Virus record (IMG/VR): IMGVR_UViG_3300017917_004125 | Span: 1-26,207 of that record | Strand: one strand, 5' to 3' | Length of the DNA stretch: 26,207 bases | From: a virus | In this document: positions 16,472 through 21,891 of the stretch, piece after piece | How the letters are laid out: each line of letters opens with the position of its first letter | How positions within the stretch are numbered: position 1 is the stretch's first letter | Notes under the pieces: model-generated | Database searches by the model: none | What the model was told of the DNA's origin: nothing | Seen by the model: the letters and a program-made list of their open reading frames with translations, nothing else | Made by a program: the position numbers and the translations under genes

Positions 16472-16546
16472 TGGAGCGGGTAGCGAGAATCGAACTCGCA
16501 ACTCAACCTTGGCAAGGTCGTGTAATAACCGTTATACTATACCCGC
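16472..16546 (-). tRNA. tRNA-Gly (GCC)
   Basis: Complete, with CCA: acceptor GCGGGTA/TACCCGC, anticodon loop TTGCCAA, T-loop TTCGATT. Its 5' fifteen bases overlap the 3' end of the GIY-YIG endonuclease gene. Confidence 0.95.
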
Positions 16547-17062
16547 AGATTCATTATGTTTTCTTTTTATCGCCTCTGAAATTTTTCTTTTATGTTCTTC
16601 AGATTTGGGCTTACCTTTAAGATTTTCTGAAATTTTTTTTCTTACATCAAGTCTATGATTTACACTGTTTTCAGAGATCTTCTTTTTAGTTTCATCTGAA
16701 TGTTTAAAACCTAGTTTGGATTTTGAGATTTTTTGCCTCGTTTTTTCGGATAAAACTGCACCTGTTCTTAATGCTTTTCCTGTGCGGTTTATGTAACCAA
16801 ATCCTCCCTTACCACCATCACACAAATTATAACTCATTTCTGAGATAACTACAAGTTCTTTTTCTTTATTTTTCATATCTTGTTCATTATCAAAAATATG
16901 TAAAATTTCTTTTTCGAAATTTTCGATTCCATATTTCTTATAAGCGGCATGCAATCTTTTACCAGAACCCATATAACCATCATTTATATTAGTAGTCTGA
17001 TGCATTCCTATATAAAATTTGTTATTGAGTTTATTTGTAATTTTGTATACTGTAAATAACAT
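16532..17062 (-). CDS. GIY-YIG homing endonuclease with NUMOD3 repeats
   Basis: A 176-aa protein started at the ATG at 17062, which follows AAAGGGG; a longer frame lacks a site. The nuclease domain is at 1-90: VYKITNKLNNKFYIGMHQ (GIY-YIG variant), GYMGSGKRLHAAYKKYG and a later Glu-rich helix. The C-terminal half has repeated NUMOD3-type DNA-binding motifs (LSEKTRQKISKSKLGFKHS, DVRKKISENLKGKPKSEEHK). This is the make-up of T4 Seg and I-Tev-like enzymes. The stop lies inside tRNA-Gly (15-base overlap), similar in idea to SegB in the T4 tRNA region. An exact late promoter sits 18 bases before the ATG. Confidence 0.9.
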   Translation of the reverse strand: MLFTVYKITNKLNNKFYIGMHQTTNINDGYMGSGKRLHAAYKKYGIENFEKEILHIFDNEQDMKNKEKELVVISEMSYNLCDGGKGGFGYINRTGKALRTGAVLSEKTRQKISKSKLGFKHSDETKKKISENSVNHRLDVRKKISENLKGKPKSEEHKRKISEAIKRKHNESAGIV

Positions 17063-17079
17063 AAATTTCCCCTTTATGT

Positions 17080-17087
17080 TATTTATA
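17080..17087 (-). promoter_or_regulatory. T4-type late promoter (TATAAATA)
   Basis: Exact octamer on the minus strand, 18 bases before the GIY-YIG ATG. Late expression is known for T4 I-TevI, so this fits a homing endonuclease. A small hairpin (TATCC, five bases, GGATA) lies just upstream and may end incoming tRNA transcripts. Confidence 0.75.
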
Positions 17088-17130
17088 AAAGTAATATCCT
17101 GCAAGGATACTGGTTACCTTTAATACAGTT

Positions 17131-20587: not shown

Positions 20588-20662
20588 TGGCGGTCCCTAC
20601 GGGAGTCGAACCCGTCTCTGCGGCGTGACAAGCCGCTATACTAACCGATATACTAAGGAACC
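20588..20662 (-). tRNA. tRNA-Asp (GTC)
   Basis: Acceptor GGTTCCT/AGGGACC, anticodon stem GCGGC/GCCGC with loop TTGTCAC, T-loop TTCGACT, CCA encoded. Its first two bases pair into the long stem of the structured spacer upstream. Confidence 0.95.
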
Positions 20663-20779
20663 ATATTGAAGCACACTGGTCTCTCGAAGTGTATGTGATA
20701 GCCAGACCGGCCGGTTCTTCTACCTTCAACTCCCCATTGGACTTTGTACAGAGTCCAACTCAATGTGCTTCAATATGGT
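20660..20779 (-). ncRNA. Structured RNA closed by a 16-bp stem, between tRNA-Ile and tRNA-Asp
   Basis: ACCATATTGAAGCACA (20660-20675) is the perfect reverse complement of 20764-20779. Between these arms lie a seven-base-pair hairpin TTGGACT/AGTCCAA (20737-20758), the palindrome ACCGGCCGGT (20706-20715) and a GGTCT/AGACC stem (20678-20682 with 20704-20708). The closing stem brings together the CCA end of tRNA-Ile and the 5' GG of tRNA-Asp. RNase P and tRNA 3' processing would release a ~113-base RNA. T4 encodes stable RNAs of unknown role in its tRNA cluster, but I see no sequence match. Confidence 0.55.
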
Positions 20780-20850
20780 ACCAGGTAGTGGGATCGAACC
20801 ACTGACCAGTGGATTATCGATCCACTGCTCTACCTCTGAGCTAACCTGGT
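20776..20850 (-). tRNA. tRNA-Ile (GAT) with C33
   Basis: Acceptor ACCAGGT/ACCTGGT, D-arm GCTC/GAGC, anticodon stem GTGGA/TCCAC with loop TCGATAA, T-loop TTCGATC, CCA encoded. The base before the anticodon is C, where U33 is almost universal in tRNAs. Confidence 0.9.
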
Positions 20851-20919: not shown

Positions 20920-20948
20920 ATATTAACATCTAATGATAACCGAGTCAA
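20920..20948 (-). promoter_or_regulatory. Sigma70-type promoter of the tRNA operon
   Basis: TTGACT (20948-20943), 17 bases, TAATAT (20925-20920) on the minus strand. The predicted start is near 20913. The ~63-base leader before tRNA-Ile holds a GAACGA-TACG-TCGTTC hairpin. Confidence 0.75.
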
Positions 20949-20966: not shown

Positions 20967-21001
20967 TTAAAAACCCTCGAACATTTCTGCTACGAGGGTT
21001 T
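20967..21001 (-). terminator. Rho-independent terminator upstream of the tRNA promoter
   Basis: Stem AACCCTCG/CGAGGGTT (8 bp, 13-base loop) followed by TTTTT-AATT on the minus strand. It isolates the tRNA operon promoter, 20 bases downstream, from the 21131-21030 locus. Confidence 0.85.
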
Positions 21002-21014
21002 CAGGTAAAAACTG

Positions 21015-21130
21015 TGTTTTGTATGTTACCTAGCCCTCTAGCACACTCCATGGATTTTGTGTAGTACGGCACTCTGGCTTATCATAGCCCGATACCGTAC
21101 TAATTCTAAAGGAATGTAACATACAAAACA
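21015..21130 (-). repeat. 15-bp perfect inverted repeat enclosing nested hairpins
   Basis: TGTTTTGTATGTTAC (21015-21029) is the reverse complement of 21116-21130. Inside, on the minus strand, are an ATTC/GAAT hairpin, an eight-base-pair TAGTACGG/CCGTACTA stem (21062-21069 with 21095-21102) containing a GGCT/AGCC hairpin, an ACAC/GTGT stem around CCATGG, and CTAG-AGGG-CTAG. This is a multi-branched RNA fold of ~116 bases, built like the element at 20660-20779. Confidence 0.6.
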
Positions 21131-21131
21131 T
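21030..21131 (-). CDS. Possible 33-aa small protein inside the inverted repeat
   Basis: ATG at 21131 preceded by AGGAG with five-base spacing and, 21 bases up, by an exact TATAAATA late promoter. The peptide starts MFCMLHSFRISTVSGYDKPE and ends CRTTQNPWSVLEG; the TAG stop sits next to the other repeat arm. Promoter, binding site and frame agree, but the same DNA also forms a strong RNA fold and no family is recognised. It could be a real small protein, a structured RNA, or both. Confidence 0.45.
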   Translation of the reverse strand: MFCMLHSFRISTVSGYDKPECRTTQNPWSVLEG

Positions 21132-21150
21132 CTCTGCTCCTGTTGTATAA

Positions 21151-21891
21151 TTATTTATACACTTCGCCCACAGTTATCTGCGTGTTAGGATTAATGGTTG
21201 TAAATTCTCCATTAATACAATAAACCCACCAGAAACCATCGTATCTATTTACCTTACTTTCAAACTCGTCTCTAATGGCAATCATTGGTCCAGGATGAAA
21301 GTGATTCACACCCGGAAGCTGCAAAAAATCTACATTGGTATGTAGCAATGCTAGATTAACCATATCAACTCCATAAGGAGTTATCTCCCTTGGGTCATTC
21401 TCATAATCATCTCCACAGATGATTCCAAACTTCTTCTTAACTATTCGTTTTGCATTTTGAATATCTTTTTTAACAGCCTCAAAATAATGAGACCCGTCAA
21501 TATACACAAAATCAAAAGTGTCATCTTTATACCATTCACAAATCTTTCGAGAGTCTCCTCTAATCATCGTGACTTCAATATTTCTATCTGCCTTATTACG
21601 TTCAAAATCTCGTATGATATTAAAAGTACTATGAAAAGCACGATCTACCATTTGATCAACTTGAATGTAGTCATCACTTTTTTGTTTATCAGCATCTGTG
21701 ATATATGGTTTCCAATAATCAATCACTGTTAAAGCAGAATCTTTTGGAAGTTCATCTAACCATAAAGACATTGATCCTTCACCAAACCACGTACCTATCT
21801 CTAAAGCATTGATAGGGGTAGTAAATTCTTTTACTGTTTGACGCATACCTTCTACACGCCAGGGCCATGCTTGATTTGTTGGGACAGCCAT
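21151..21891 (-). CDS. Class I SAM-dependent methyltransferase
   Basis: A 246-aa protein of the Methyltransf_24 type. Seen: NALEIGTWFGEGSMSLWL (28-45, SAM-binding motif I), an acidic strand end in ALTVIDYWKPY, VTMIRGDSRKICEWY (motif near 107-121), TFDFVYIDGSHYFEAVKKDI (about 124-143, motif IV), and GIICGDDYEND. Relatives methylate sugars or other small molecules; the substrate is unknown. A strong AAAGGAAAG precedes the ATG. The last codons and stop contain the late promoter of the next locus. Confidence 0.85.
   Translation of the reverse strand: MAVPTNQAWPWRVEGMRQTVKEFTTPINALEIGTWFGEGSMSLWLDELPKDSALTVIDYWKPYITDADKQKSDDYIQVDQMVDRAFHSTFNIIRDFERNKADRNIEVTMIRGDSRKICEWYKDDTFDFVYIDGSHYFEAVKKDIQNAKRIVKKKFGIICGDDYENDPREITPYGVDMVNLALLHTNVDFLQLPGVNHFHPGPMIAIRDEFESKVNRYDGFWWVYCINGEFTTINPNTQITVGEVYK
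21152..21159 (-). promoter_or_regulatory. T4-type late promoter (TATAAATA)
   Basis: Exact minus-strand octamer overlapping the stop codon of the methyltransferase gene, 21 bases before the 33-aa ORF and its inverted repeat. Confidence 0.65.

Follow-up and report, generated by a model that had tools for sequence, protein, structure and literature searches.

Does a small open reading frame (ORF) enclosed by an inverted repeat mark a protein gene, a structured RNA, or an RNA with both functions? The question is raised by a locus on the minus strand of the virus record IMGVR_UViG_3300017917_004125, whose complete stretch of 26,207 nucleotides is referred to here as the window. In this locus, a late promoter, a 33-residue frame lying between the arms of an inverted repeat, and a terminator follow each other closely, and the initial annotation had offered three options for it: a self-regulated small protein, a structured RNA that happens to contain a frame, or a dual-function RNA. 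Judged by its sequence, the locus is a small late gene, unannotated until now, that is common to uncultured T4-like phages. The reading that we favour, with a probability of roughly 60%, is that the locus forms a late gene with a single cistron, that its product is a soluble peptide of about 33 residues, and that the mRNA controls how it is itself translated. We propose that the gene works as a self-timed small-protein mRNA, which ribosomes would read chiefly during its synthesis and which would be locked on completion.

Architecture of the transcription unit

The T4-type late promoter TATAAATA (21152..21159, on the minus strand, as are all the features of the unit) has its predicted +1 at position 21146, 15 nt before the ATG; this start was placed by applying the convention that the T4 late promoter box occupies positions -13 to -6 (PMC1524935). 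A Shine-Dalgarno sequence, AGGAG (21137..21141), lies 5 nt upstream of the ATG (21131-21129) of the 33-aa ORF MFCMLHSFRISTVSGYDKPECRTTQNPWSVLEG (21030..21131), which ends in a TAG at 21032-21030. The arms of the repeat form the closing stem P1, a perfect inverted repeat of 15 bp with 86 nt between its halves: the 5' arm occupies 21116..21130, and the 3' arm follows immediately after the stop codon (21015..21029). Promoter, AGGAG, ATG, TAG and repeat are all where the initial annotation had placed them, with the stop codon adjoining one arm as described. Its description of the ATG as lying inside the other arm needs a refinement, since the T and the G are within the 15-bp arm and the A is outside. 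The strong terminator that it reported downstream is an intrinsic one, ACCCTCG...CGAGGGTTTTT (20970..21000), with a C/G stem formed by 21000-20993 and 20979-20972 and followed by a U-run; it is conserved among relatives, and was missed by a consensus scan because its loop is longer than the limit of that tool. At the sequence level, a late box at a fixed distance and a terminator after the ORF are those of a T4-type late transcription unit. The TATAAATA motif by itself is not significant in the window (4 present, 4.5 expected), and it is exact in 37 of the 38 distinct relatives of the element.

The RNA of this locus is predicted to fold into P1, a long central hairpin P2/P3 inside the ORF (21062..21102), and a small hairpin P4 on the NPWS codons (21042..21061). 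This fold would bury the start codon in the closing stem, as had been anticipated, and with -49.5 kcal/mol it is far better than those of shuffled sequences (z = -6.9, or z = -7.9 including the terminator). When promoter-proximal and terminator sequence is part of the fold, the AGGAG is also predicted to pair, in the window family, with a downstream ACCUG/U-rich sequence.

Distribution among uncultured phages

The element, made up of ORF, closing stem, late promoter and terminator, occurs in at least 38 distinct sequences from about 16 clades of uncultured T4-like phages, as one copy per genome or contig (larger records included) and just upstream of the tRNA array. The order of late box, ORF, terminator, sigma-70 promoter and tRNA array is found in 37-38 distinct sequences, and a sigma-70-like promoter lies downstream of the element in 32 of 37 cases. 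A search with the pattern of two arms plus gap yielded eight contigs (L003 among them) with identical arms and identical 86-nt spacing, all with TATAAATA, AGGAG and ATG, and with the terminator wherever the contig extends to it; a core pattern search returned the same eight contigs and no match in the bacterial genomes searched. The element is also present in far more distant phages, whose loci were reached via a neighbouring 142-aa gene and where the unit consists of this gene, TATAAATA, the small ORF, the terminator, a TTGACA/TATAAT-like promoter, and tRNA-Ile. Scanning with the terminator of these distant relatives gave 56 contigs with a single match each, which hold the element and its ORF in all cases except a few GC-rich chance matches and one true member truncated by the contig end.

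Other searches were less productive. The methyltransferase-like ORF upstream of the element retrieved no related loci when used as the query, and a further pattern search returned mostly unrelated sequence, in which the peptide profile revealed no new members. Element and peptide are absent from both isolate genomes searched (Melnitz and S-CREM1), and in BLASTN and tblastn searches of sequenced phages neither the RNA nor the peptide nor the 142-aa neighbour had a credible relative. Weak Pseudomonas matches, obtained with a made-up consensus as the query, were at chance level, and the GC-rich terminator matches lacking the element (L298, L299, L311, L320 and L336), together with L331, were discarded as chance pattern matches. 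Possible very distant members are found in L137 (3465-3687) and L140 (3772-4079), with a late box, a 34-35-aa ORF, and a different terminator before the tRNAs; the peptide profile did not pick them up. Two contigs from the same metagenome, L087 and L089, both end 12 bases past the second arm of the RNA, and look as if the assembly had broken at a sequence common to several phages.

Conservation of the fold, the frame and the peptide

Because plain alignments lose register, covariation was assessed by an alignment-free arm-swap test, in which the 5' arm of each clade is folded with its own 3' arm and with the 3' arms of the other clades. For P1, the test on 16 clades gave z = -7.2 and p = 5e-5, which is its floor (z = -6.4 without the window family), and the pairing was better than with dinucleotide-shuffled partners in every clade, with a mean z of -3.6. 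P2/P3 gave z = -6.5, with z = -4.9 for the P3 tip (compensatory pairs TGGC/GCCA, TGAC/GTCA, GGTAG/CTACC and CGGTT/AACCG) and z = -2.9 for the P2 base.

All 16 clades, and all relatives with enough sequence, have an open frame, the chance of which in shuffles of the same composition is 0.08-0.31 per clade. Frame-blind multiple alignments keep 89-91% of the aligned ORF columns in phase; for simple pairwise alignments the figure is 69%, with phase 0 the commonest in 115 of 120 pairs. Codon-level conservation, a check suggested by the initial annotation, was expressed as a substitution score corrected for the number of nucleotide changes, and it is positive in frame 0 only, at +0.96 per codon; the other two frames score -0.07 and -0.69. 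The start codon is ATG in L332 and GTG in its sisters L111, L120, L128, L321 and L328. The predicted leaders of the relatives measure either 0-1 nt or 12-20 nt (15 nt in the window), and therefore the position of the start codon with respect to +1 is consistent and some members are likely leaderless; 10 of the 38 relatives are predicted to be so, and 20 carry a Shine-Dalgarno purine core.

Relatives could have kept neither the arms nor the frame, a result that the initial annotation had named as refuting its idea; they keep both, and the arms covary, which disfavours the option of an incidental frame. A small protein encoded by a structured mRNA that hides itself does fit. RNA structure and coding frame, the two halves of the dual reading, are both conserved, and the RNA may in addition have a role of its own.

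The encoded peptides have about 33 residues (from 29 to 42 among the relatives) and share a motif that reads roughly C-x-x-S-Y-G-R-Q-P-E-x-F-A-R-x-N-S-W-S, with a nearly invariant W in its C-terminal part, A-R-x-N-S-W-S. None of 17 peptides is membrane-like, with grand average of hydropathy (GRAVY) values from -0.03 to -1.02 and a best 17-residue window of at most 1.28. Six representative peptides searched against Pfam and PHROGs matched no family, the sole PHROGs match being at chance level (E = 0.27), and AlphaFold gave no confident peptide fold (mean predicted local distance difference test score 59, predicted template modelling score 0.12).

Predicted closure of the start codon by the end of its own message

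In most clades, the fold prediction pairs the start codon with the stop codon or with sequence that follows it, and the mean predicted pairing with this stop/3' region is 0.73, compared with 0.37 with swapped 3' ends. Prediction and covariation both speak, in this sense, for a 5'-3' interaction that hides the initiation region once the mRNA has its full length. The predicted accessibility of the start codon, as the mean of the 16 clades, is 0.60-0.69 as long as the transcript does not reach beyond the stop, falls to 0.31 when it has grown 15 nt past it, and is 0.22 in the complete RNA (median 0.09). This drop after the stop suggests translation while the RNA is nascent and silence when it is finished.

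According to the mechanism that we propose, transcription would start just past the late box, giving a leader of 15 nt here and of 0-20 nt in relatives. As long as transcription of the ORF is under way, the start codon would be mostly free and usable by ribosomes. Once the sequence after the stop has been made, it would pair with the start region as P1, closing the mRNA around the conserved central hairpin, and the terminator would end the transcript after this closure. The finished RNA would then be stable and silent until a ribosome, a helicase or a nuclease opens it. The proposal of a lock is based on computed conservation, covariation, frame conservation and predicted start-codon closure. 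Transcription from the late box, translation, its timing, and any function of the peptide are things that we infer. A tentative extension, which we regard as a possibility and not as the expectation, is a gene class whose mRNA would be translated only while being made, each transcript providing a limited burst of soluble peptide late in infection and then closing into a stable RNA that may act on ribosomes or tRNA supply, start codon, frame and lock having evolved together throughout a wide clade of uncultured T4-like phages.

Counter-evidence and rival explanations

Several observations weigh against this reading of the locus. The swap test for P4 was not significant (p = 0.16), and RNAalifold found no consensus pairs in 16 sequences that had simply been aligned with MAFFT, because that alignment loses register. 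The clades are related, so their combined probabilities are not independent, and parts of the codon alignment behind the coding score were placed manually. Within clades, 21 synonymous codon changes stand against 46 nonsynonymous ones, which indicates a loose short-range constraint on the amino acids. As for the lock, the window's own sequence has a predicted nascent accessibility of just 0.35-0.45, followed by 0.19; L118 folds without any start-codon lock; and in the GTG clade most of the start region is paired at a stage when the 3' arm has yet to be made.

A structured noncoding RNA with an incidental frame would account for the strong fold, its covariation, and the loose amino-acid constraint. 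It would also explain why the third codon positions in the ORF diverge by only 0-9% in the window family, compared with 20-54% in the neighbour genes, if constraint on the RNA dominates there; we take this low divergence to reflect either RNA-level constraint or recent exchange of the segment, on top of coding. We nevertheless consider this explanation unlikely, given a frame that is open in all clades, indels that preserve its phase, conserved start placement and stop position, the GTG/ATG exchange, and a coding score confined to frame 0. Recombination could be part of the reason for the near identity within the window family, and the coding evidence would equally suit an ordinary small-protein gene whose structure results incidentally from composition or from the recent spread of near-identical copies. 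The swap test makes this very improbable: the letters of the arms differ between clades and yet still match, and recent spread cannot explain the structure because ORF identity between clades is mostly 55-75%.

Two further explanations assign a different role to the peptide or its translation. In a leader-peptide attenuator, translation of the ORF would free its GAGGGTTA end to pair with the 5' strand of the terminator, with late read-through into the tRNA genes as the outcome. The location just before the tRNA array fits this scheme, and the end of the ORF is complementary to the 5' strand of the terminator in many clades, L326 folding in this manner. However, the antiterminator swap test was weak (z = -2.2, p = 0.018), the pairing is weak or absent in L111, L121, L138 and L324, and the tRNA array has a promoter of its own, the sigma-70-like TTGACT-17-TAATAT at 20920..20948 on the minus strand, which belongs to a separate neighbouring unit; we thus find an attenuator improbable. 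We give hardly any credence to a type I toxin-like gene of the hok/aapA kind with a hidden antisense antitoxin. Even though the architecture resembles that of toxin mRNAs in which a 5'-3' interaction acts as the lock (PMC6733600, PMC5668327), the hydrophobic, membrane-type peptide of such genes is missing, GRAVY being negative in 17 of 17 peptides, and no sigma-70-like promoter was found on the opposite strand between 20800 and 21300. The gene has not been filed as a type I toxin because its peptides are not membrane-like.

Genomic setting and neighbouring structured RNAs

Genes for UvsX, for a gp41-type helicase and for 15 tRNAs are carried by the 26.2-kb record. Judged by the helicase, its closest isolates are phages of Synechococcus and of Methylophilales (62-63% identity), and the two records examined are classed as Kyanoviridae. 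The small ORF is flanked by the tRNA array and, upstream on the same minus strand, by the methyltransferase-like ORF (21891-21151), whose stop codon is overlapped by the late box (21159-21152). An ORF similar to GIY-YIG homing endonucleases, with NUMOD3 motifs, lies beside tRNA genes at 16532-17104 of the minus strand.

A second structured RNA (20657-20782, minus strand; fold z = -6.1) is found between tRNA-Ile and tRNA-Asp, with a 22-nt closing stem that is 91% paired, 16 bp of it perfect. Its relatives keep the closing stem with altered letters and differ in their interiors, and the version in L085 looks tRNA-like (T-arm). Another RNA, of about 148 nt, is present in L111 (3415-3562), L129 (4196-4344), L153 (3923-4069), L162 (4813-4958) and L110 (4781-4929); it has a 13-19-bp closing stem, lies beside tRNA-Cys (after tRNA-Glu in most), carries a shared inner motif that reads GCGGGCCTAACTGTGCGAGGAACAGGTCC in several of them, and had no Rfam match in L111 and L129. 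An RNA with a perfect 23-bp closing stem lies between tRNA-Thr and tRNA-Met in L031 (383-545). In the Rfam search of the window, L111 and L129, only tRNAs were matched above the gathering score; the weak chance hits that were also obtained fell far short of the cut-off.

Comparison with known systems

Annotation is poor for small phage proteins and for structured phage RNAs alike, and this locus combines the two. It offers a clear comparative case of a start codon hidden by sequence that follows the stop, in a gene for a soluble peptide rather than a toxin, and a short reporter would be enough for a direct test of nascent-only translation. It also adds an element with predicted late expression to the T4-like tRNA islands, already known for structured RNAs lacking assigned roles.

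Close parallels in architecture are the hok and aapA toxins, whose full-length mRNAs are locked (PMC6733600, PMC5668327). The mRNAs of hok, aapA1 and aapA3 are likewise short, encode a small peptide, and hide the initiation region in a full-length 5'-3' fold by means of a 3' element located after the ORF. Contrary to them, the gene described here has a soluble peptide and a late phage promoter, its start codon itself is predicted to pair with sequence just past the stop, and no sigma-70-like promoter for an antisense RNA was seen on the opposite strand between 20800 and 21300. The nascent RNA of aapA3 is also kept closed, whereas here it is predicted to be mostly open.

The T4 genes e, soc, 49 and I-TevI, in which the initiation region (Shine-Dalgarno and/or AUG) is hidden in an RNA helix (PMC3014915), share with this gene the T4-like phage, the late promoter and the hidden initiation region. 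In gene e, however, the hiding strand lies upstream and is missing from the late transcript, so the late mRNA is active (PMC3014915), while here it would lie downstream of the stop and be part of the late transcript. The leader of the MS2 maturation gene, as cited in PMC6733600, is similar in that translation is predicted only before the final structure forms; it belongs to an RNA phage and is located upstream of its gene, whereas the closure predicted here encompasses the whole small ORF. Finally, T4 RNA C and RNA D (PMC3014915), GOLLD, and ROOL (PMC12286853) resemble this element in being encoded within phage tRNA islands or close to them. Going by description, the present element differs from these RNAs in that it has no Rfam match, a late promoter of its own, and a conserved reading frame; GOLLD and ROOL are also far larger.
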